The position numbers and the translations under genes are program-made. The notes beneath the pieces are model-generated. The model saw nothing but the letters and a program-made list of their open reading frames with translations. It made no database searches and was not told where the DNA came from. Positions 1,543-25,126 of a stretch of DNA of 43,807 nt are shown here, in pieces. Positions within the stretch are counted from its first letter, which is position 1. Each line of letters begins with the position of its first letter. Source of the DNA: Salinivibrio siamensis (GTDB lineage: Bacteria > Pseudomonadota > Gammaproteobacteria > Enterobacterales > Vibrionaceae); NCBI RefSeq assembly GCF_001996005.1, contig NZ_MUFB01000004.1, positions 95,334 to 139,140 of the forward strand. The letters run 5' to 3'.

Positions 1543-1928
1543 CCCAGTGCCTCTCCTATCGGGACAGGCACTGCTGCGTTCCCGCTATCGTTTCTCCACC
1601 CTCTTAAGCATCCCTTCTTCTGAGGACAGGCACTTTTACCCTGACAAGCACCCTCTTAAGGCACCCTCTTACGGGGACAGGCACTGTCTCTTATGAGGAC
1701 AGTCGTACTTCTTGCGCTCTCATTTCTTGTAAGGACAGGCACCTACATGTTAGCCGCAGGCCCCTCGTTCTGTCCGACACACTATCAGCTCTTGTGGGGA
1801 CAGACACTTATAGCACTCCCTTTTAGCGCCCTATCAGGACAGGCGCATCGAAGTAAGTGAGCAAACCTCGGTGACTGTCCTATGAATAGTTCGCGGGAAC
1901 AGACACTGTCTCTTATGAGGACAGTCGT
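1543..1928 (+). repeat. Cluster of about ten GGGGACAGGCAC-family repeats between chiS and the transporter operon
   Basis: Cores begin near 1561, 1622, 1673, 1695, 1731, 1796, 1836, 1895 and 1917 (forward) and at 1871 (reverse, GTGACTGTCC). The copy at 1561 is preceded by an inverted half (AGTGCCTCTCC, from 1544), giving a possible hairpin. Two copies (about 1680-1715 and 1900-1937) belong to a longer near-identical block containing CACTGTCTCTTATGAGGACA, so copies spread partly by local duplication. Many copies are preceded by CTCTTA or CTATC and followed by TTTTA. The rest of the gap (1930-2500) is AT-rich and has no credible gene; it should hold the promoter of the binding-protein gene, but I could not place -35/-10 elements with confidence. 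Confidence 0.85.
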
Positions 1929-2438
1929 ATTTCTTGGGTTCTCTTAACGTGCCCGTCCTCTGACTGACGAGCTAAAATCGCTCATTAATAATCTTTGCGA
2001 ACCAACCTCATTTCAATCGCAATGCTTCTTAGCAAAAATCCCCTTTTATGTCGGATATAACTCAGAAATGCGCGACTTGTCACAACAAAATAGATACTGA
2101 TTTTTCTCGTTAAAAAATAAGAGTGTTTTGGTGTGTGACATGCATCGCCCAAAAGATAATTAAACATAACATTATGATTTTTATATTATTATAATTCCAT
2201 CCAGGGTCGTTATCAGGAGATAATCGTAATTGCATCCTGAAGCGGACAACCTTTTTAGCTGTTTTTTTTAACGAAAATAACGTCAACGTCGCGCTTTTTT
2301 ACGGTTTTAACGATTATTCACATTGCAGCCTTCACTTAACTTGGGCTTAGTGAAGATGTTTGCTGGCCTGGAGCAACAAGTATCGCTTGGGGCATCCCAT
2401 CCATAATCACAACGTCAGGGTCGGCAACACAGTAAGCT

Positions 2439-8326: not shown

Positions 8327-10324
8327 ATGCAAGTGCTGACCAATCACATTGGCTACTCGTTACACGGTGACAAATACGCGGTGATCGTCAGTGACAGCGA
8401 CCGCCTCACCGGTACGCCCGTGGCACTGATTTCCCTGCCTCCTCTTAAGGGGACAGGCACATTTAGCTCGGCGGACAAAGCTGCCTCCTCTTCTGGGGAC
8501 AGGCACTTTAATGAAGCCGCAGAAGGCGCGCAAAATTTTACGGGGACAGGCACTCTTACTCACGGGACAGACACTTTTGTTCGTGGGACAGACACAGCAC
8601 CACTCGATAACGTGGTCGCGCAGTTTGAATTACACCAAGGCACACAGTTAAGCAACTGGCAGATGGGTACGGCTTATACCCTCGATTTCTCTGCCTTTGC
8701 ACATCGCGGAAGCTATCAACTAGCATTACTAACAGAAACACCTGTGTATTCGCATCCGTTTGAGATCATTGACGATGGCCTGTTTCACACCACGTTTTCC
8801 GATTTGCTGCATTATTTTAAATCGCAGCGGTGTAGCGGCATCTATGAACACGCGGATCAGCACGCCAAGGTATTCGGCTCTGATGAACGCGTGGATGTAT
8901 CCGGCGGTTGGTACGATGCCTCTGGCGATGTGAGCAAATACCTGAGCCACCTTTCCTACGCCAATTACTTTAATCCGCAACAAATCCCGCTATTGGCTTG
9001 GGGACTGGCCGATCTTACCAGCCAATTTAGCTCGGACACGCTCCCCGCGTTTATGCGCACGCGCTTAGCCGATGAAGCGAAACACGGCGCTGATTTTCTT
9101 CTCCGTATGCAAGACCCCAGTGGCTTTTTTTATATGACGGTGTTTGATCAATGGTCGAAAGACCCAGAGCGCCGCACTCTTTGCGCTTACGCGACGCAAG
9201 ATGGAGTGATGAGTGAGGCTTACCAGGCCGGTTTTCGTCAAGGCGGCGGCATAGCGATTGCTGCCCTTGCCGCCGCAAGCCGATCCCCGCTTTGCGCGGA
9301 TCCAGACCAACAAGCACGCTATTTAGACGCCGCCATTCGCGGCTACTGGCATTTGGTTGAACATAACCATCATTACCTTGATGACGGAGAGCCCAACATT
9401 ATTGACGAAACCTGCGCTCTTCTCGCCGCATGTGAGTTGCATCACGCCAATCGGCAGTCTACCGAGGAGCAACCTACCGGGGACAGTCACGCTTATTTGA
9501 CGGGACAGGCACCTTTAGGTTCTGGGGACAGACATATTAGTGCGAACAGTGACTGTCCCTTCTTGAACGAGGCACGAGGCTGGATGACAAAGCTGATAGC
9601 ACGGCAGTGCAGTGATGAAACTTGCCAGTATTATTGGTCAGCAAATACTGATGGCGGCCGCCCGTTTTACCATGCCGCCGATGCCGGTCTACCCGGCTTG
9701 GCATTAGTTCGCTACCTCGATGTGGAAACCGACCCCAGCCATCAAGCTATCGCGCAAACAGCACTGGAACGCGCCTGTCAGTTTGAGCTCAACCTAACAC
9801 AAACAGCCGATAATCCATTCGCGTATCCGCGTCAGTACGTCAAACCCGTCGATGGCGTCAAACAGGTACGTCACTTTATTCCTCACCACAATGAAACCGG
9901 CTATTGGTGGCAAGGCGAGAATGCACGCTTGGGATCACTGGCAACCTTTGCGTGTCATGCCACGCGCCACATTCAAGACAATGCGCTAAATGCGGCCCTC
10001 CACACCTTTAGCCAACGGGCGCTTAATTGGATCCTCGGTTTAAACCCATTTGATATCTGCATGCTCGATGGACATGGTCACAACAACCCAGATTACCTAC
10101 CGCACTTGGGATTTTTTAATGCCAAAGGGGGGATCTGCAATGGCATTACCGCAGGGATGGAGGATGAAACACAGATTGCCTTCAACCCCGCGCCATATTG
10201 CGATGATATGGCGCAAAACTGGCGATGGGGCGAGCAATGGTTGCCACATGCAAGCTGGTTTATGCTCGCCATCAGTGCGCAAACACTGGTTGGCAACGGC
10301 CACTCGAACAAGGAGAACGCGTGA
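8327..10324 (+). CDS. GH9-family glucosaminidase/endoglucanase-like enzyme carrying in-frame repeat insertions
   Basis: Cytoplasmic (no signal peptide) glycoside hydrolase family 9 protein, 665 residues. It has an N-terminal Ig-like domain and an (alpha/alpha)6 barrel with GGWYDASGDVSKYLSH (catalytic Asp region, about residue 195), WWQGENARLGSLATF (likely acid Glu, about 531) and ILGLNPFDICMLDGHG. The V. cholerae counterpart VC0615 is described as an exo-glycosidase acting on glucosamine or glucose oligomers. Start ATG 8327 with AAGGAT six bases upstream. Oddity: residues about 40-90 and 382-413 are low-complexity peptides (GTGT, GDRH, GTDT, GQAP) encoded by GGGGACAGGCAC-type repeats in different frames, with no stop or frameshift. 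The protein is longer than the roughly 570-580 residues I recall for relatives, which fits two insertions. Whether it is still active is unknown. Confidence 0.85.
   Translation: MQVLTNHIGYSLHGDKYAVIVSDSDRLTGTPVALISLPPLKGTGTFSSADKAASSSGDRHFNEAAEGAQNFTGTGTLTHGTDTFVRGTDTAPLDNVVAQFELHQGTQLSNWQMGTAYTLDFSAFAHRGSYQLALLTETPVYSHPFEIIDDGLFHTTFSDLLHYFKSQRCSGIYEHADQHAKVFGSDERVDVSGGWYDASGDVSKYLSHLSYANYFNPQQIPLLAWGLADLTSQFSSDTLPAFMRTRLADEAKHGADFLLRMQDPSGFFYMTVFDQWSKDPERRTLCAYATQDGVMSEAYQAGFRQGGGIAIAALAAASRSPLCADPDQQARYLDAAIRGYWHLVEHNHHYLDDGEPNIIDETCALLAACELHHANRQSTEEQPTGDSHAYLTGQAPLGSGDRHISANSDCPFLNEARGWMTKLIARQCSDETCQYYWSANTDGGRPFYHAADAGLPGLALVRYLDVETDPSHQAIAQTALERACQFELNLTQTADNPFAYPRQYVKPVDGVKQVRHFIPHHNETGYWWQGENARLGSLATFACHATRHIQDNALNAALHTFSQRALNWILGLNPFDICMLDGHGHNNPDYLPHLGFFNAKGGICNGITAGMEDETQIAFNPAPYCDDMAQNWRWGEQWLPHASWFMLAISAQTLVGNGHSNKENA
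8449..8595 (+). repeat. Five in-frame GGGGACAGGCAC-family copies inside the GH9 gene (N-terminal insertion)
   Basis: Cores at 8449-8460, 8495-8506, 8542-8553 and two GGGACAGACAC forms at 8564 and 8585. They are read as Gly-Thr-Gly-Thr (first, third), Gly-Asp-Arg-His (second) and Gly-Thr-Asp-Thr (last two), so at least two reading frames of the same motif are used. The stretch lies between the conserved start of the Ig-like domain and the sequence FELHQGTQLSNWQ. Confidence 0.9.
9479..9560 (+). repeat. Four further in-frame repeat copies inside the GH9 gene (catalytic-domain loop)
   Basis: GGGGACAGTCAC at 9479 (read GDSH), GGGACAGGCAC at 9502 (read GQAP), GGGGACAGACAT at 9524 (read GDRH) and a reverse copy AGTGACTGTCCCT at 9548 (read SDCP). 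Together with the first cluster, all three forward frames and one reverse frame are translated. The insertion falls between ACELHHANRQ and EARGWMTKLI, presumably a surface loop between barrel helices. Confidence 0.88.
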
Positions 10325-13176: not shown

Positions 13177-13416
13177 AGGGACAGGCACTTGTTATTTCTC
13201 GCGAGGACAGTTTCCTGCCAGGACAGACACCTTTACGCATCCATAATTGATTTCTAGCGAGGACAGTCACCTCTTGATGACTATCCTCGTCGTTTTTCTC
13301 CAACGTTCGAACCTTTTCCCCTATCAGGACAGGCACTCTGTAGTGACTGTCCCTGTTATGACTTCCTACGCCATCACTACTCACTATTCTCGAGAAGTAC
13401 TTCTTGGGACAGACAT
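13177..13416 (+). repeat. Repeat cluster upstream of the RAYT gene, with hairpin pairs
   Basis: Family copies at 13177, 13203 (partial), 13220, 13259, 13326 and 13406 (forward) and at 13278 and 13342 (reverse). Two inverted pairs are close enough to fold: 13259-13288 (GAGGACAGTCA against TGACTATCCTC) and 13326-13354 (AGGACAGGCACT against AGTGACTGTCCCT, 4-base loop, one mismatch in the inner arms). Inverted pairs like these are the form of REP sequence that RAYT proteins are known to recognise. The remaining 13420-13547 shows no gene. Confidence 0.85.
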
Positions 13417-13547
13417 GTTAAGAAAATAACAACTCTCACAATTACACCACTTCTTGCACTGTCACCAAAACTCTAGCTAGAAAAGATGAAGACTGTTCAT
13501 TTATACAGTACCTTTTAGTCATACCAAGATGCTAAGAGGGACCGACG

Positions 13548-14489
13548 ATGACTAAAGCTCGCGCATCGCAAATAAATTTAGCCGCCACACCTTATTACCA
13601 TTGTGTCTCACGTTGTGTGCGCCGCTCGTTTTTGTGCGGCTATGATGCGCAGTCACAAAAAAGCTATGAGCATCGTCGCACATGGATAGAAACGCGTTTA
13701 CTTACACTCGCCAAAGCATTTTGTATCGATATCTGTGCTTATGCCATTATGAGCAATCACTATCACGTTGTTTTGCATATCAACGCCAAAGCGGCTCAGT
13801 CTTTAACCAATATCGAGGTTGTTGAACGCTGGCTAGCCTTTCATCAAGCGCCTGCGCTTATCCAACGTTTTTATCAGGGTGAATCGCTCTCTCACTCAGA
13901 GCGAAAAGCGTGTTTTCGCATCATTGAGAACTGGCGCGAACGTTTGATGTCTGTCAGCTGGTTTATGAAGCTGCTCAATCAATATATTTCGACGCTAGCG
14001 AACCGAGAGGATCAATGTTCAGGGCATTTTTGGGAGGGACGCTTTAAAAGCCAAGCCATATTAGATGAAAAAGCACTCGCTGCGGCGATGGCCTATGTCG
14101 ATTTGAACCCAGTGCGAGCAGGTATCACCAAGCAGCCTAAACATGCCAATTACACATCGATTAAAAAGCGCGTTGAATCACTCGAGCAAAATAAAGCGAC
14201 CCCAGCCGGCTTATTCCCCTTCGCCGGGAACCCGAGAAAGCCGATGCCCGACGGTATCCCTTTTCGCCTTATGGACTATTTGGCTCTGGTAGAATGGACG
14301 TGCGATCAGGACCAGAACGCCAATTCACTCCCAAGACCACAGCTACTCACACAGCTGAACATCTCACGTGAAACCTGGTTAAGTACATGCTCTCACTTAG
14401 AGGGCGGGAATATCGTAGGTTCACTATCGAGTATTCAGGCGGTCTTGCCGACACTCGGTCTAAAACGCATGACCGGCGTCATGATCTAA
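13548..14489 (+). CDS. REP-associated tyrosine transposase (RAYT, Y1_Tnp / HUH family)
   Basis: Single-strand DNA transposase-like protein of 313 residues. The HUH motif is N-H-Y-H-V-V-L-H-I (H71, H73) and the candidate catalytic tyrosine is Y146 in KLLNQYISTLANRE, followed by SGHFWEGRFKSQAI and YVDLNPVRAGI, all typical of the family. A C-terminal extension of about 110 residues follows the core. RAYTs are usually single-copy, immobile genes linked to short palindromic repeats that they bind and nick; dispersal of the repeats is attributed to them. Here the gene is flanked on both sides by the GGGGACAGGCAC family (13177-13416 and 14750-14833). Start ATG 13548 with AAGAGGG upstream. No terminal repeats of an insertion sequence are evident around it. 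Confidence 0.9.
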   Translation: MTKARASQINLAATPYYHCVSRCVRRSFLCGYDAQSQKSYEHRRTWIETRLLTLAKAFCIDICAYAIMSNHYHVVLHINAKAAQSLTNIEVVERWLAFHQAPALIQRFYQGESLSHSERKACFRIIENWRERLMSVSWFMKLLNQYISTLANREDQCSGHFWEGRFKSQAILDEKALAAAMAYVDLNPVRAGITKQPKHANYTSIKKRVESLEQNKATPAGLFPFAGNPRKPMPDGIPFRLMDYLALVEWTCDQDQNANSLPRPQLLTQLNISRETWLSTCSHLEGGNIVGSLSSIQAVLPTLGLKRMTGVMI

Positions 14490-14554
14490 AGTGAGTTGGG
14501 CTTGTCGTTGAAGGCATCCCAATAACGTAAACACGAAATAAACTCGCTAAGACC

Positions 14555-14668
14555 TCATCCAATCCAATAGGCCAGCACCATTATCAGTACAAACAACACA
14601 CCCACCGCTTTTAAGAGCGGCTTTAGCCCTTTTGCTCCACCTTCCGGGGATTGATTACAGCATCCCAT
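14555..14668 (-). CDS. Small single-pass membrane protein, 37 residues
   Basis: A short frame on the minus strand with a strong ribosome-binding site: CAGGAGATAAT directly before the ATG at 14668. The peptide begins MGCCNQSPEGG, continues with a basic segment (KGLKPLLK) and ends with one hydrophobic helix (VGVLFVLIMVLAYWIG) before TGA. The Gly-Cys-Cys start is conspicuous. The layout (short polar Cys-bearing N-terminus, C-terminal helix) is that of small membrane proteins; function unknown. It stands between the RAYT gene and yciI and no other gene shares its strand nearby. Confidence 0.6.
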   Translation of the reverse strand: MGCCNQSPEGGAKGLKPLLKAVGVLFVLIMVLAYWIG

Positions 14669-14749
14669 ATTATCTCCTGACCGTTTTTCCAGAAGAATAA
14701 GCCTTCCAGTAACAGGAAGGTAAAGGGCTATCCAGTTTTTGATCTTGTT

Positions 14750-14833
14750 GGGACAGGCACGTTAAATACTTAAGAATGCTTAAGTGTCTGTCCTACTCTC
14801 GGTAAGACACTTTTAACCTTGGTGCCTGTCCCC
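14750..14833. repeat. Inverted repeat copies upstream of yciI
   Basis: A forward core GGGACAGGCAC at 14750-14760 is matched by reverse cores at 14783-14794 (AGTGTCTGTCCT) and 14821-14833 (GGTGCCTGTCCCC), with a degenerate copy near 14803. The first pair encloses the palindrome ACTTAAGAATGCTTAAGT (14767-14784), so a long stem can form. This mirrors the cluster on the other side of the RAYT gene. Confidence 0.85.
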
Positions 14834-16687: not shown

Positions 16688-16715
16688 AACGAGGCGATTT
16701 ACCGGTTGGCCACTG

Positions 16716-16904
16716 AGGACAGGCATCATAACGACTTCACACTTACGTCGCTAGGGCAATCATATAAGTGACTGTCCCCCGAGTGTTCACCCTAGAGCAA
16801 TTATAAAGGTATAAAGGTGCCTGTCCCGTTAGTTCTAGCTCTTAGCTTAAAGTGCCTGTCCCCAATAGTCGCCCAATAGTCGTTAACTTAAAGTGCCTGT
16901 CCCC
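16716..16904 (-). repeat. Repeat cluster between rbsR and the RluA-type gene, with a 41-bp tandem duplication
   Basis: A forward copy at 16716 and reverse copies at 16767, 16816, 16851 and 16892. The last two belong to a tandem duplication of period 41 (16846-16886 and 16887-16927), each starting CTTAAAGTGCCTGTCCCC and containing a second conserved part (ATAGTCGCC/ATAGATCGCC, AATAG). The second unit runs into the stop codon of rbsR at 16924-16926. Confidence 0.85.
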
Positions 16905-17962: not shown

Positions 17963-18892
17963 TTAAGCATCTTGATGGGCCAAAAACGCCTCAACCTCTG
18001 AACGAGAAGGAATCGAAGTTTGTGCGCCACGCTTTGTCACGGATAATGCCGCCGCGGCATGCGCAAAGCGAATTGCCTGATAAAGTGTCTGTCCCTCTAT
18101 CAGTCCTGTCACCAATGCCCCATTAAAGGTATCACCCGCGGCAGTGGTATCGACAGCATCGACACGGAACCCAGGAATAAGCTGGCCCGATTGTTCGCCT
18201 TTTTCACTCAGCCATACGCCTTGTTTGCCGAGGGTGATCAGTACAGTCCCTACCCCTTTTTCATGAAGCACGTCCGAGGCCGCTTGGGCGCTGGCGGTGT
18301 CTGTTACCGCGATACCCGTCAGGCTTTGGGCTTCCGTTTCATTCGGGGTGATAATATCGACCGCGGCAAGAAGCGCGTCGCTCAGCGGTGCGGCAGGGGC
18401 GGGATTAAACACCACCTGTGTCTTTGCCGCTTTAGCATGAAAAGCCGCCTTTTCAATGCCGCACATCGGTGTTTCTAACTGCATCAGTAAATAGTCAGCG
18501 TCGGCGATTTTAGTGAGATTATCGCTGATGGTCTCCGCTGTCAGATTGGCATTGGCTTCTGCCGAGAGCGCAATACTGTTCTCACCTTGATCAGTCACTT
18601 GGATCATCGCAATCCCAGTCAGCGTATCAGGCTGTACTTTTATCGCACTGACATCCATCCCCTCTTGCGCGTAAGACTGACGAATCTGCTGGCCAAAGGC
18701 GTCGTCACCCACACTGGCAATAAAGGCAACATCGGCACCGCAACGCACCGCCGCGACTGCTTGATTGGCCCCTTTGCCGCCCGCAATTACGGCATAATCG
18801 TGGCCGTGTAACGTCTCGCCCGGACGCGGAAAGTGAGGGACGCGTAAAACATGATCAGCATTGACGCTGCCAAGAACAACCAATCGGCTCAT
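17963..18892 (-). CDS. rbsK: Ribokinase
   Basis: PfkB-family kinase, 309 residues, which phosphorylates ribose to ribose-5-phosphate with ATP. First PfkB signature GGKGANQAVAAVRCGADVAF and second signature VDTTAAGDTFNGAL (catalytic Asp in AGD), with NPAPAAPL and NETEA substrate and metal motifs. Fourth in the operon between rbsB and rbsR. A repeat-like string (AGTGTCTGTCCCT, 18084-18096 on the plus strand) encodes EGQTL just after the second signature; the length here still matches E. coli RbsK, so it is either a sequence-replacing copy or coincidence. Confidence 0.95.
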   Translation of the reverse strand: MSRLVVLGSVNADHVLRVPHFPRPGETLHGHDYAVIAGGKGANQAVAAVRCGADVAFIASVGDDAFGQQIRQSYAQEGMDVSAIKVQPDTLTGIAMIQVTDQGENSIALSAEANANLTAETISDNLTKIADADYLLMQLETPMCGIEKAAFHAKAAKTQVVFNPAPAAPLSDALLAAVDIITPNETEAQSLTGIAVTDTASAQAASDVLHEKGVGTVLITLGKQGVWLSEKGEQSGQLIPGFRVDAVDTTAAGDTFNGALVTGLIEGQTLYQAIRFAHAAAALSVTKRGAQTSIPSRSEVEAFLAHQDA

Positions 18893-19929: not shown

Positions 19930-19976
19930 AGTGTCTGTCCTGCTAAATTCTGCTGCTAACTAAAAGTGCCTGTCCC
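19930..19976 (-). repeat. Two repeat copies between rbsC and rbsB
   Basis: GTGTCTGTCC at 19931 and AGTGCCTGTCCC at 19965-19976, both in reverse orientation and both preceded by the AT-rich TAAAA/ATAAAA part of the extended motif. They sit inside an otherwise compact operon, so they are transcribed within the rbs message. Confidence 0.85.
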
Positions 19977-20013
19977 AACAAGCTACTATTTCGAAAAGCT
20001 TTGTCTAAAGCGG

Positions 20014-21003: not shown

Positions 21004-22505
21004 GCTGCATCCTCATTGGCATCTTTGCCTACCGCACAGGCAAGCAGGGTTTCTTGGTTAGCGTCTTTGGCATCAAACTCACCGCATACGCGGCCTTCGT
21101 GCATCACTAAGATACGGTCGCTCATGCCGAGTACTTCGGGCATTTCTGACGACACCAAGATGATACTCATGCCCTCGGCTTTAAATTGATTAATTAGCTG
21201 ATAAATCTCTTTTTTGGCACCGACATCGACCCCCCGAGTCGGCTCGTCCAAGATCAGCACTTTCGGTTTAGTCATCAGCCCTTTGGCGATCGCCACTTTC
21301 TGCTGATTCCCGCCCGATAAGTTGCCAATGATTTGCTCGCGGGTTGGGGTTTTGATGTTAAAAAGACGAATAAAATCATCCACTGCCATCACTTCATCGC
21401 GCGGCTGTATTTTCCCCCAATGGGTGAGCTTATCGAGTGCACTGAGTGACATGTTGTCTTTCACCGATAAGCCCAACACCAAGCCCTCACCTTTGCGGTC
21501 TTCAGAGATGTAAGCAATGCCGTTGGCCAGCGCATCTTGCGGACTCACTGGGTTAATCACTTTGCCATCAAGCCGAATCACGCCGGCATCACGCGGCATG
21601 GCACCATAGATAATTTTCATTAACTCCGTGCGCCCGGCGCCCATCAGACCCGATACACCCAGAATTTCACTACGGTGCAGCTGAAAACTCACCGCTTCCA
21701 CCCCGTGGCCGCTGACATTTTCCACCTCAAGGCTTATTCCATCAGGGGTGACGTCACTTCGTGGATATTGTTCGGCGAGTTTGCGGCCCACCATCATTTC
21801 AATCAGGCCGTCTTCATCGGTATCACTCACGGGACACTCACCAATAAACTTGCCGTCACGTAACACGGTGATCCGATCGCAAATCTCAAAAATTTCTTTT
21901 AGTCGGTGGGAGATATAAACAATGCCGCAGCCTTGCGCTCGCAGCTCGTTGATCACCGCAAACAGCGAGGCGGTTTCGGTGTCGGTCAAAGCATCCGTCG
22001 GCTCATCCATAATGATCACTTGCGACTCAAACGACAGCGCTTTGGCAATTTCCACCATTTGCTGCTCACCCAAGCTCAAGCTGCCAAGTGGCGTGGTGCC
22101 ACGTGCTTTCACATTTAAACGCGCCAACAGCTTATCGGCTTCTTCAGCCATCTTGGTCCAGTCAATCTTGCCAAACCGGTTAGTAAACTCGCGGCCTAAG
22201 AAGATGTTCTCGGCAATGGTCAGCTCTGGGATCAAATTGAGCTCTTGGTGAATAATACTGATCCCCGCTTGCTGCGAATCACGCGGGCCTTTAAACGAGA
22301 CCGGTTCACCTTGATAGTTCACGTCGCCACTGTCGGCGTGATAAATCCCGGTGAGTACCTTCATCAACGTGGACTTGCCCGCGCCATTTTCACCGAGTAG
22401 CGCCATTACCTCGCCGGGATAGACATTTAAGCTCGCCTCATCGAGGGCCCGCACCCCGGGAAAGGTTTTTACGACTTGGCGGAGTTGTAAGATAGGTTGC
22501 GTCAT
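21000..22505 (-). CDS. rbsA: Ribose ABC transporter ATPase (duplicated nucleotide-binding domains)
   Basis: A 501-residue protein with two ABC domains. N-terminal half: Walker [10 protein letters not shown], signature [13 protein letters not shown], Walker [14 protein letters not shown]-terminal half: degenerate Walker [10 protein letters not shown], signature [13 protein letters not shown], Walker [15 protein letters not shown]. This is the sugar-transporter (RbsA/XylG/MglA) arrangement, and 501 residues is the length of E. coli RbsA. The ATG at 22505 ([18 protein letters not shown]) is chosen; an upstream in-frame ATG at 22577 lies within rbsD. It lies 23 bases after rbsD and overlaps rbsC. 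Confidence 0.95.
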
Positions 22506-22528
22506 TGTGGTTACTCGCTTAGGCCCAC

Positions 22529-22948
22529 CTAAAAGGTGACACCGGCTTGAAAAATCACATTGGCATAAGGCGTGCACTCGCCGGTGCGTACCACCGCTTT
22601 GCTCTGCACCGTACGTGCTTTAAACGCCTCGTGGCTGATCGTGGTCACAGTGATCGGCTGCTGACGCGCCGCACTCTCTTGCTCCAATCGCGCAAGCAAG
22701 GCTTGGTGCAGCGCCGGGCTCACCGCAGCAAGCTCTTCTGCAATCACCACCGACTCAATGCAGGTGTGAGTTAACACCGTCTCGACCGTCTGCATAAAGC
22801 TCGGCACGCCTTGGGTCAGCGCTAAATCAATACGCGGCACCGAGTTGGGGATCGGCAGCCCCGCATCACACACAGTCAGCTCATCGGTATGCCCGATTTG
22901 GGTGACTAGCTGTGCAAGTTCTGGATGGAGCAAACCATGTTTATTCAT
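22529..22948 (-). CDS. rbsD: D-ribose pyranase
   Basis: A 139-residue protein, same length as E. coli RbsD, that interconverts the pyranose and furanose forms of ribose so that ribokinase receives the furanose. Conserved blocks: [42 protein letters not shown] (catalytic His in GHTD, Asp in CDAGLP) and [19 protein letters not shown] at the C-terminus. First gene of rbsDACBKR; the operator palindrome is about 95 bases upstream. Confidence 0.95.
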
Positions 22949-23040
22949 TCATCACCTTCTCACTCACGATAGGATCAATCAGCGCTCACTATGCGCTGGC
23001 ACGTTTTCTTGTGATCAACGTTTTCTCTCAGGAAAACACC

Positions 23041-23056
23041 ATCGAAACGTTTCGAT
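23041..23056 (-). promoter_or_regulatory. RbsR operator upstream of rbsD
   Basis: ATCGAAACGTTTCGAT is a perfect 16-bp palindrome about 95 bases before rbsD. Its core CGAAACGTTTCG is shared with the known E. coli rbs operator and is the classic LacI-family half-site arrangement with a central CG. I could not place the promoter hexamers around it with confidence. Confidence 0.85.
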
Positions 23057-23212
23057 ATAGGCAAATAATGCAGATGAAAGAAAAATTTCACCATCTGTAA
23101 ACATCACAGATGTGAGGGGGATCGACTATTGATATTGAAATCATTAGTAAAGGGAGGGGAAGATCACATTAGGGGGTTGGGAGAACTAGAGACTAGAAAG
23201 AGCCTAGGGGAC

Positions 23213-23305
23213 GGAATACGGAAAAAGCGTATCGTGCCTGATCCTGTAGATAAAGGGCCTAGGTTCCTTGGTCCTAGGCACTGCTTCCCGCTCTTTCCCG
23301 TATTC
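23213..23305. repeat. Imperfect inverted-repeat element bounded by GAATACGG / CCGTATTC
   Basis: GAATACGGAAAAAGCG at the left is mirrored by CGCTCTTTCCCGTATTC at the right. Inside are CGTATCGTGCCTG, GTAGATAAAG and two CCTAGG strings. Nearly the same inner sequence recurs at about 36711-36775, next to the GAATACG tandem array, so this is a second dispersed intergenic family. Confidence 0.7.
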
Positions 23306-23360
23306 AAGATCCCGAATCAAGGTCGGATAAGCACCAATAGCACCACCGAAATAAAAACCA

Positions 23361-23521
23361 GGCGTAGGTCGGACAAGCGCCAACACGATGTGAGCCTCGT
23401 TCCCCGGTGCAACTGGCGCGCCTCCGACATTGATGATTAAAATTGGCACTGATCGTGACAGGCGCCCGTTAACATGGTGCATGATTTTTGACACGGTGCC
23501 GGGGCTTGTGTCACCTACGCC
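23361..23521 (+). repeat. About 160-bp repeat element, copy A
   Basis: Bounded by GGCGTAGGT and its inverse ACCTACGCC (161 bp). Inner arms GTCGGACAAGCGCC and GGCGCGCCTCCGAC also form an inverted pair. The right part holds GATCGTGACAGGCGCCCGTT and GGTGCCGGGGCTTGTGTC, shared with copies B and C. The left arm resembles the REP-type GTAGGTCGGA repeats of other gammaproteobacteria. The space 23057-23210 has no recognised gene. Confidence 0.85.
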
Positions 23522-23579
23522 AATGGCACCTTCGGGCTTAAGTGTAGAAAAAGTCCCTAGGCACAGCTTTACGCTTTTC

Positions 23580-23617
23580 CTAGCCTCTCGTTTCTAGAAG
23601 CGCAGCGTCTCAGTTCT
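23580..23617. repeat. CTAGAAGCGCAGCGTCTC element, copy 1
   Basis: CTCGTTTCTAGAAGCGCAGC followed by GTCTCAG; the sequence TCTAGAAGCGCAGCGTCTC recurs at 25070-25092. It overlaps the 3' end of the small CXXC gene (stop at 23610-23612). Confidence 0.6.
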
Positions 23618-23804
23618 CGTCCTTCTCCATCGGCTCACTCAAACCCGGCACCGCTTGGCAAAACGTGCATTCTTCATTATCCACCGAGGCACCGCCCGAC
23701 TCGACGTAGCGAATACGATGACTCGCTTTGCCTCGGTTAGCCGACACCGCAAACCGCCGTTGGTCACGCTCGGGAATGGTCTTTTCTGTGTCATGGTTAG
23801 TCAT
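23610..23804 (-). CDS. Small CXXC protein, 64 residues, hypothetical
   Basis: A strong ribosome-binding site (TAGGAGG, seven bases before the ATG at 23804) marks this as a real gene. The protein is hydrophilic and basic in its first half (PERDQRRFAVSANRGKASHRIRYVES) and has a C-terminal acidic tail with one CTFC pair (a CXXC motif able to bind metal or form a disulfide), then QAVPGLSEPMEKDEN. No signal peptide or membrane segment. I do not recognise the family. It stands between 160-bp elements A and B on the same strand as the neighbouring toxin-antitoxin pair. Confidence 0.6.
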   Translation of the reverse strand: MTNHDTEKTIPERDQRRFAVSANRGKASHRIRYVESGGASVDNEECTFCQAVPGLSEPMEKDEN

Positions 23805-23875
23805 GATTTACCTCCTAAGAATGCCGAAACCAACTCAGCCATAGTTAGCTTAGCGCCCGAACGAGCCCAACCAAA

Positions 23876-23888
23876 AGTGACTGTCCTC
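23876..23888 (-). repeat. Single GTGACTGTCCTC copy
   Basis: An isolated reverse-orientation member of the GGGGACAGGCAC family (AGTGACTGTCCTC), followed at 23903-23920 by overlapping CCTAG-containing strings of the second intergenic family. Confidence 0.7.
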
Positions 23889-23959
23889 GATAGCCGATAC
23901 TAGGTCCTAGTTCCTAGGAATTGTTTTCCGCTTTTCCCTAACTCACGATCCCAAATTTC

Positions 23960-24117
23960 GCGTAGGTCGGACAAGCGCCGGGGTAATGTTAATCTTATAA
24001 CTCGATGTAGCCGCGCGCCTCCGACATCGAGGTCAAATCGGGCAACGATCGTGACAGGCGCCCGTTGGCATGGTGCATGATTGTTGACATGGTGCCGGGG
24101 CTTGTGTCACCTACGCC
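23960..24117 (+). repeat. About 160-bp repeat element, copy B
   Basis: 158 bp from GCGTAGGT to ACCTACGCC, same orientation as copy A. It shares the whole right half with copy A (GATCGTGACAGGCGCCCGTT, then GCATGGTGCATGATT). Its middle segment, containing ATGTTAATCTTATAACTCGA, is shared instead with copy D, so the copies look mosaic. Confidence 0.85.
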
Positions 24118-24165
24118 AATGGCACCACCAAAAGTCCCAATAAATTACGATAAATTACTAACTAG

Positions 24166-24462
24166 CTAATCCAGAAGTCTTTCAGGTGCGTCCATGTCCT
24201 CGTGCAGCACACGAACAACGAGTACCTCCGACTCAAGTACTTGATAGAAAACAGCGTGATGCTCGACCTGCAACCTTCGATACCCAGAAAAAACATAGGC
24301 GTAGTTCGTGCCGAGTGATGGATGATTAATCAGCTGTTTCATGCCGGTCTCAAGCTGATCTAGATATTTATCTGCCTGATCAGCACCCCATTTTTCGCAG
24401 GTATATACCCAAATTCCAATGAGATCAGATTCGGCCTTCGGCGTGACGCTCAGCTTAAGCAC
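24166..24462 (-). CDS. parE: ParE/RelE-superfamily toxin
   Basis: A 98-residue ParE-like toxin: MLKLSVTPKAESDLIGIWVYTCEKWGADQADKYLDQLE, the family pattern of a helical N-terminus, then NHPSLGTNYAYVFSGYRRLQVEHHAVFYQV and VLHEDMD at the C-terminus. ParE toxins poison DNA gyrase and are neutralised by ParD; whether this member does so is inferred. Its first base overlaps the last base of the antitoxin gene, the usual co-translation arrangement. The module lies between repeat elements B and C, a typical accessory setting. Confidence 0.88.
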   Translation of the reverse strand: MLKLSVTPKAESDLIGIWVYTCEKWGADQADKYLDQLETGMKQLINHPSLGTNYAYVFSGYRRLQVEHHAVFYQVLESEVLVVRVLHEDMDAPERLLD

Positions 24463-24716
24463 TAATCAGCCGCCTTCATCCGTTGACGGCCAGTTGCCTT
24501 GATAGCCGATACATCGAGTACCTTAGGTTTCCCGCTTGACTCACCCTCAGCGAGAGCCTGCCTCAGCACGGCAATACGTTCTTGAGCCTGCTGATCTCGA
24601 CGGATGAGGTAACGGATATACTCACTGTCATTGCCAAACTGACCGCTTTCAATCTGGCTTTTCACCCAACAGTCTTGTTGTTCAGTCAGCGTAATGGTTT
24701 TCCGATGCATGCTCAT
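24462..24716 (-). CDS. parD: ParD-family antitoxin
   Basis: An 84-residue ParD-type antitoxin. N-terminal ribbon-helix-helix (MHRKTITLTEQQDCWVKSQI, GQFGNDSEYIRYLIRRDQ) for operator binding, then a charged C-terminal segment that should wrap the toxin. ATG 24716 or ATG 24710 could be used; neither has a strong ribosome-binding site. First gene of the pair, with a palindrome upstream at 24741-24759 likely bound by the antitoxin or the complex for autoregulation. Confidence 0.88.
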   Translation of the reverse strand: MSMHRKTITLTEQQDCWVKSQIESGQFGNDSEYIRYLIRRDQQAQERIAVLRQALAEGESSGKPKVLDVSAIKATGRQRMKAAD

Positions 24717-24740
24717 ATCTGGCCATCCTAATATATCACG

Positions 24741-24759
24741 GGTATGACAATATCATACC
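24741..24759 (-). promoter_or_regulatory. Operator palindrome of the parDE pair
   Basis: GGTATGA and TCATACC flank a 5-base centre (CAATA), 25 bases upstream of the antitoxin start. A perfect 7+7 inverted repeat at this place is what ribbon-helix-helix antitoxins bind. Confidence 0.65.
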
Positions 24760-24854
24760 ACCCGACTGCGCCGAATCAATTACTGCTTCTTATCGACTCG
24801 CGTCTTGAGACACAAGCACCAATGGCACCAATGGCACCACCAAAATAAAAACCA

Positions 24855-25013
24855 GGCGTAGGTCGGACAAGCGCCAACACGATGTGAATCCTGTATACCC
24901 AAGCCGAAGCGCGCCTCCGACGTTGAGGTCAAAGACAGGCGCAGTGCAACTAGCGCATAGGCGGTATAGTGCATTGTTGTTGGCCTAATCCCGAGGCTTG
25001 TGTCACCTACGCC
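24855..25013 (+). repeat. About 160-bp repeat element, copy C
   Basis: 159 bp from GGCGTAGGT to ACCTACGCC. The left third is nearly identical to copy A (GACAAGCGCCAACACGATGT); the right part is diverged but ends in GGCTTGTGTCACCTACGCC as in A and B. It is preceded by a short triplicated string CAATGGCACC (24817-24840), the sequence that follows the right ends of copies A and B. So the array unit extends beyond the inverted ends. Confidence 0.85.
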
Positions 25014-25055: not shown

Positions 25056-25126
25056 TGTCTAGTTTCTAGTCTCTAGAAGCGCAGCGTCTCGTCTCTTTCT
25101 GTGTTCAGACTAAAGTGCCTGTCCCT
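25056..25126. repeat. CTAGAAGCGCAGCGTCTC element, copy 2, and the last GTGCCTGTCCCT copy
   Basis: TCTAGAAGCGCAGCGTCTCG (25070-25093) repeats the element at 23580-23617. Just behind it AGTGCCTGTCCCT (25114-25126), preceded by CTAA, is the last clear member of the GGGGACAGGCAC family in the window. Confidence 0.7.

Follow-up and report, generated by a model that had tools for sequence, protein, structure and literature searches.

A RAYT gene with inverted GGACAG-type ends in Salinivibrio: a fixed breakpoint 10 nt outside the motif as a possible footprint of one-ended copying

The RAYT gene of Salinivibrio siamensis and its inverted GGGGACAGGCAC-type ends appear, with moderate probability, to make up a small mobile element of the TIRtron kind with a single-tyrosine (HUH/Y1) enzyme, which would copy one-endedly from a nick 10 nt outside the motif. 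New here are the breakpoint at -10 of head-to-tail motif copies and the micro-duplications at the element ends. Based on these footprints, a mechanism is proposed, at slightly under even chances, in which the TnpAY1 element amplifies its own ends in place through a nick exactly 10 nt outside GGACAG, extension and re-ligation, resulting in head-to-tail arrays and about 10 nt of donor flank per copy. The enzymology of one-ended copying is deduced, the position of the presumed nick being read from the duplication boundaries.

The window, i.e. the whole stretch of 43,807 nucleotides that was analyzed, contains the RAYT gene flanked by miaE and a YCII-family gene on its two sides (Table 1). The gene is single in the 3.44-Mb Salinivibrio genome, where one further match was weak (30% identity), and its nearest protein was found in Salinivibrio sp. 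ES.052 (97%). A preliminary description made from the window had noticed clusters of a motif on both sides of the gene and about 30 more copies in the window, and both points were borne out: GGGGACAGGCAC with at most 2 mismatches was matched 33 times against 2.4 expected, with a maximum of 6 in 100 shuffles, and the clusters extend over 13177-13417 and 14749-14833. Some of the 33 matches (25717, 36723) may be due to chance. The same description spoke of a dispersed repeat family, and this was not upheld. The exact 11-mer GGGACAGGCAC occurs 17 times in the whole genome, 14 of them within C34:96.9-120.5 kb around the RAYT gene, and 31 of the 50 genome copies of GGACAGNCAC lie in that same interval (reversed-pattern controls for the genome counts, 1 and 25, respectively). 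In this genome the motif family is local, clustered at the RAYT gene within about 24 kb, and genome-wide dispersal was rejected for Salinivibrio.

Table 1. Coordinates of the proposed element, its gene and the motif copies in the window
Feature	Position	Strand	Remarks
Proposed mobile element, RAYT + inverted GGACAG ends + about 10 bp outside each motif	13397..14803	+	ends inferred from relatives, copy alignment limits and -10 breakpoint; right limit uncertain, 14803 or about 14841
RAYT / TnpAY1-type transposase, 313 aa	13548..14489	+	NHYH 70-73, WE 162-163, YVDLNP 183-188
Upstream end motif GGGACAGACATG	13406..13417	+	about 140 bp before RAYT start codon
Downstream end motif, GGACAGACAC on - strand	14784..14793	-	inverted position also in relatives
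Second downstream copy, exact GGGGACAGGCAC	14822..14833	-	alternative right end
Copy just downstream of RAYT gene	14749..14760	+	inward pair with 14784-14793
Array spot A, 5 copies + then 2 copies -	1560..1960	.	
Array spot B, 5 head-to-tail copies in GH9 ORF	8449..8595	+	
Array spot C, 3 + and 1 -, in GH9 ORF	9479..9560	.	
Array spot D, between miaE and element	13177..13354	.	
Array spot F, 1 + then 4 -	16715..16904	.	
Single copy in pfkB-family ORF	18085..18096	-	kept in 6/6 genomes shown, including gene-free G004
Array spot H, 2 copies	19931..19977	-	
Single copy, outlying right side	23877..23888	-	
Outermost right copy	25115..25126	-	

The RAYT protein carries the motifs NHYH (N70-H71-Y72-H73), WE and YVDLNP, and H71, H73, Y183, N187 and P188 were invariant across 42 aligned sequences, comprising the window protein and 41 of 79 fetched relatives. 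The HUH motif was thus placed correctly by the preliminary description, which also listed Y146; this residue does not occupy a conserved column, and the invariant tyrosine is Y183 in YVDLNP, the Y motif of the family and the probable catalytic nucleophile. Presence of both the HUH motif and the class-2 Y motif (Y---NP) identifies the protein as RAYT/TnpAREP (TnpAY1 class 2). Pfam Y1_Tnp matched it weakly (E 2.9e-5), and the NCBIfam RAYT/TnpAREP model NF047646 gave 44.8 bits, under the curated cut-off of 80, so that the protein is related but falls outside that model. An AlphaFold model with a pLDDT of 86.6 had the E. coli RAYT 4er8 as its best PDB match (Z 13.3 over 159 residues, rmsd 3.0), the next one scoring 7.5. 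Foldseek/VIA matches outside the transposases (Thg1 and others, Z up to 7.5) were taken as common folds.

Around the genes of 79 relatives, a motif of the GGACAGNCAY type (fifth base A or G) was found 177 times at up to 1 kb from the gene, where the reversed pattern occurred 2 times; the counts were 72 against 3 at 1-3 kb and 147 against 9 further out, 53 of these 147 coming from four Salinivibrio loci. Within 1 kb the motif is inverted on the two gene sides (upstream 94 + and 9 -, downstream 67 - and 12 +), often with a + copy 86-162 bp before the start and a - copy 196-290 bp after the stop. When 19 of 20 loci fetched later were added to the 79, the pattern located a 5' end in 63 of the 98 loci, a 3' end in 53, and in 44 an inverted pair beside the gene as in a TIRtron, spanning an element of 1276-1435 bp. 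The motif keeps the same places relative to the gene in Salinivibrio, Enterovibrio, Photobacterium, Vibrio, Thalassolituus, Marinomonas and others. The upstream end in the window contains GGGACAG, and GGACAG alone is found in many relatives. A diverged clade of enzymes (43-46% identity) has GGACAGCCA in place of the motif; of 20 loci fetched, 18 show it as an inverted pair around the gene, and of the two that do not, L138 belongs outside that clade. In G022 (Bacterioplanes sanyensis, L087), 24 protein matches, many of them fragments, were observed together with zero exact 11-mers, and its flanks suggest GGACAGTC as a variant of the end motif.

Alignment of copies at different sites extended from near one motif to near the other in about 12 of the best 60 of 960 pairs, among them L066/L071 (98.8%), L023/L024 and L051/L055; many of these best 60 pairs end short of the downstream motif, and others continue where the site is the same. 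Pairs within one genome are either close (L049/L050 97.2%, L087/L091 94.2%) or diverged (L086/L098 90.9%, L024/L059 84.0%). At the site where L144 has an element inserted, L142 and L143 show uninterrupted sequence, L142 bearing its own element further on; this comparison covers the left junction, the right one lying beyond the fetched stretch. L139 and L140 have insertions at one place that differ by about 25 bp just outside GGACAG. Target-site duplication within 5 nt of the motif was not found above control, 4-5 nt being shared in 11 of 44 elements against about 8.5 in permuted pairs, in a search that a duplication beyond a carried 10-nt flank would escape. At -6, G is absent from all 44 left and 44 right ends, with T or A mostly at -6 and -5, and a weak TTA at -6 to -4, outside the motif, is perhaps part of the recognition site. 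In two genomes, L134 and L135 share the left flank of the element and differ in the right one, possibly by an adjacent deletion or rearrangement. At G163:C3:1011595-1013812, two gene copies lie head to tail with equal scores and starts 1270 bp apart, as if an end were shared.

Genomes hold numerous gene fragments, some of which retain the end motif at its usual place, and the element is found at many sites; these observations also suit an ordinary TIRtron that moves only as a whole element, in which solo motifs are decayed nearby copies and arrays arise by host slippage or unequal crossing-over. Such an explanation seems unlikely; one point against it is that motif spots of the window other than the gene hold no RAYT remnant detectable in a protein search at E 0.001.

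Motif number follows the gene. Across 150 genomes of the family (presumably Vibrionaceae), exact copies average 5.83 in the 53 genomes with the gene and 0.90 in the 97 without it (medians 3 and 1; reversed-pattern control means 0.64 and 0.39), with a p of 9e-8. By a hand-made list, whose source names all matching genomes and individual matches only in part, 12 of the 53 gene-bearing genomes have only diverged enzymes and average 0.75 copies, no more than the gene-free ones, for which their variant end is the proposed explanation. The other 41 average 7.32, and the 34 of these left when Salinivibrio is excluded average 5.35 (p 3.5e-8), both p values being too small since the genomes are related. 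Within Salinivibrio, the gene is present in seven of eight genomes, and gene-free G004 has 3 exact copies against 12-27 in the others. Equal motif density in relatives lacking the gene, which the preliminary description had named as the finding that would overturn its link between RAYT and motif, was not seen; together with the set positions in many genera, these numbers support that link strongly. With a looser pattern, gene-free G004 still keeps 16 copies in 40 kb, which counts against the preferred reading; the window has 35, and 40-kb stretches from four other genomes have 26-38. The largest number of exact copies among the 150 genomes, 39, was observed in G087 (same family, genus g8).

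Gene loss in G004 is likely, because the window strain is a near relative (94-97% over five blocks, with 71% and 84% over another two) and other genes occupy its miaE-YCII interval. In G004:C8 (L106-L107), at 22380-24960 of the joined stretch, permease-like and dioxygenase-like ORFs, so named from a reading of their translations, stand between miaE and the YCII gene. Locality is not general beyond Salinivibrio: of the 135 exact copies in 15 other genomes, 53 have a gene hit at 20 kb or less (5.3 expected) and 82 lie farther, a count that omits G022 (the sixteenth genome searched, with no motif match), its gene hits left out.

Salinivibrio copies occupy shared spots, and their number differs among species. 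Arrays at shared spots, including those of gene-free G004, might be expected if the motif were a selected regulatory or protein-binding site of the host with RAYT merely among such sites. This explanation is highly improbable and already largely refuted, as the motif accompanies the gene to different places in many genera and is near background number in gene-free genomes of the family.

Neighboring copies mostly follow one another in the same direction. At the loci of the 79 relatives, neighbors at most 120 bp apart were oriented head-to-tail in 130 cases, inward in 25 and outward in 4. The preliminary description spoke of a hairpin that arises only where two copies meet in opposite orientation; the hairpin or REPIN arrangement was rejected as a rule, because copies seldom meet head-on. 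Motifs more than 1 kb from the gene tend to point inward in other taxa (left 64 + and 29 -, right 27 + and 44 -; Fisher p 1.3e-4, the loci not being independent). The side effect was clear beside - strand genes (left 18 + and 8 -, right 11 + and 31 -) and weak beside + strand genes (left 46 + and 21 -, right 16 + and 13 -). In Salinivibrio the bias in motif orientation agrees with the direction of the gene, and gene strand as the whole explanation of motif orientation was rejected on the side counts in the other taxa.

The footprint became visible when neighboring head-to-tail copies were aligned on the motif and compared base by base, identical stretches being counted once, here and in the duplication tests, and pairs spaced less than 26 left out of the later -10 profiles. 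Four loci (L020, L021, L022 and L037) from the same genomes as G001, G005, G006 and G007 were likewise left out. For 169 adjacent pairs with a spacing of 26-120, identity was 0.28, 0.32, 0.27 and 0.26 at -14 to -11 and 0.41, 0.43, 0.51 and 0.43 at -10 to -7. In 1973 same-strand control pairs, separated by over 1 kb within their locus, it was 0.27 at -11 and 0.26, 0.26, 0.27 and 0.31 at -10 to -7. Of 2000 cluster bootstraps drawn from 44 sources, 1699 placed the step at -10, and it was seen separately in Salinivibrio and in other taxa; on the inner side of the copies, identity falls off gradually. As judged from these profiles, the duplicated units appear to have a fixed left breakpoint 10 nt outside GGAC, with chance identity at -11. 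A first reading, with units of variable start that all stop at the motif, was dropped once the profile placed the fixed point on the -10 side. Host slippage in an ordinary TIRtron offers no reason for a unit start at -10, and copies more than 1 kb apart lack raised identity there, although spot B in G004, by eye, resembles the loss of units between direct repeats.

Furthermore, micro-duplications accumulate at the element ends. In a search over the outer 50 bp together with the first 4 bases of the motif, direct duplications of at least 8 bp were found outside 37 of 115 ends (shuffled mean 3.5, largest 6), and 13 of 115 in the inside flanks; at a length of at least 12 bp there were 17 against 0 shuffled, and 8 inside. 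An earlier test on all motifs, with a minimum listed length of 9 instead of the 8 used for element ends, found them in 28 of 274 cases on the outer side, 13 of 249 on the inner side and 30 of 4367 at randomly chosen places. The second duplication copy ends at -1 to +4 in 28 of the 37, and this placing of breakpoints at the element ends also argues against an ordinary TIRtron. The periods are 9-16 in 30 of the 37. This would fit a staggered double-strand break with one nick at the motif and another on the other strand about 10-14 nt off, roughly one turn of the helix, whose ends are then filled in and joined. Such a break is an improbable source of the whole pattern, since it yields short duplications and not units running past the motif or into the gene, and related IS200/IS605 transposases are described in PMC6006769 as using single-stranded intermediates. 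Orthologous Salinivibrio ends differ in having the duplication (G005 versus the window, W, and G007; G001 versus G006), as displayed for five of the seven gene-bearing genomes, G002 and G003 missing.

Longer units were traced by eye. In L144, L168 and the left flanks of L122 and L136, a gene copy breaks off and a new motif begins after about 10 nt; in L144 (G071:C41), the truncated RAYT copy is directly followed by another copy, with the 10 nt and new motif at the junction. The + motif is kept at its usual place in 11 of 20 5' truncated fragments, 4 of the 20 ending at a contig end, and the - motif in 4 of 10 3' fragments. Because the two ends are equivalent, a comparison of 5' with 3' fragment numbers has no diagnostic value and was given up. 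On visual inspection, AAAAGAATAAT stands outside the left motif in both L132 and L144, and L066 and L071 have ACGTAGTC in common outside the right motif with unlike left flanks, as if some donor flank traveled along.

A fixed start and a variable end would be the traces left by a nick with subsequent extension and re-ligation. In the one-ended copying preferred here, the enzyme would recognize the motif on the G-rich strand, Y183 would nick 10 nt 5' of GGAC, and the enzyme would keep hold of that 5' end; the free 3' end would be extended over a variable distance and then re-joined to the enzyme-bound end. HUH enzymes are known to leave a 5'-phosphotyrosine and a 3'-OH able to prime synthesis or attack, according to PMC8266576. 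Extension by a few bases would produce the 10-14-bp micro-duplications, extension slightly past the motif the head-to-tail arrays, extension over several hundred bases the 3'-truncated gene copies, and extension to the opposite end whole elements. If the bound end were now and then joined to a different 3' end close by, further spots would be seeded at distances of up to about 15 kb. Micro-duplications, arrays and truncated copies would thus follow from the model, as would inward orientation and locality; copying beside itself alone leaves the spread to distant sites and the seeding of far spots unexplained.

The kind of element is already known, because the inverted ends fit the TIRYT/TIRtron motif GGGGWSAS. 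RAYT-like HUH genes with terminal inverted repeats that lack GTAG were named TIRYT or TIRtron in 2013, and in the accessible text of Di Nocera 2013 (PMC3733652) the repeats form dimers and clusters at moderate copy numbers, as here. GGGGACAG in the window fits that consensus, a match judged on the consensus and not on the TIR sequences of Figure 9 in Di Nocera. That portion of the paper makes no mention of duplicated ends, of a breakpoint at a constant place or of copies gathering around the gene. By its NHYH, WE and YVDLNP motifs, the enzyme appears to fit TnpAY1 subclass 2.3, which, in the consulted sections of Quentin 2018 (PMC6006769), has the same motifs and a median of 325 aa versus 313 here, and occurs mainly in Chromatiales and Alteromonadales. 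The 26 published TIRYTs belong, in the same sections, to subclasses 2.1 (20), 2.2 (4) and 2.5 (2), with none in 2.3, and the authors found no associated repeat for 2.1 and 2.3, for 2.3 by either automatic or manual search, in contrast to the conserved end motif here. Subclass 2.3 genes are also present in several copies in many genomes, as are the genes here, Salinivibrio having a single one. The claim of the preliminary description that no formal description exists therefore fails for the element kind and stands for subclass 2.3, as far as those sections go; its observation as a whole is partly confirmed and its interpretation partly supported.

RAYT/TnpAREP systems with REPs, REPINs or BIMEs share a related fold (4er8, Z 13.3) and the association with short repeats. 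The motif here differs in having neither a GTAG foot nor an internal stem-loop, in being mostly head-to-tail, and in being local in Salinivibrio; the conserved flank signal GGACAGNCAY contains no internal palindrome and no GT[AG]G foot, so the preliminary description was right in setting this architecture apart from GTAG-headed REPs. The IS200/IS605 family (IS608, ISDra2) likewise has an HUH enzyme, but its signals are subterminal hairpins and not inverted ends. Elements of the IS200/IS605 type and of the IS91 type, which transposes one-endedly, cut on the 5' side of the recognized signal, the IS91 enzymes being of the Y2 type. In the literature searched, no report of one-ended, rolling-circle-like copying or of end duplications for RAYT/TIRYT was found, the 12-mer GGGGACAGGCAC occurred in one unrelated paper, and none of the matches listed for GGGGACAG had it together with RAYT, TnpAREP or IS200. 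Mechanisms of RAYT repeat dissemination were called poorly understood in 2021 (PMC8266576).

For a subclass in which repeats were reported as not found, the footprints predict to the base where the cut should lie, 10 nt 5' of GGAC, and they suggest a route from a solo end to an array. If true, one-ended, rolling-circle-like spread would be one way in which repeat families might arise. One array is carried in frame by a glycosidase gene and is variable among species: the GH9-type glycosidase ORF at 8327-10324 holds spots B and C in its coding sequence, spot B has 2 to 5 copies across the seven genomes shown, and the length differences at spots B and C are all multiples of three. The GH9 protein has a variable repeat-coded insert, because the array length changes only in threes. 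At spot F, compared in six other genomes with G002 unresolved, the stretch measures 133-308 bp in five and 1552 bp, with other DNA inside, in the sixth.
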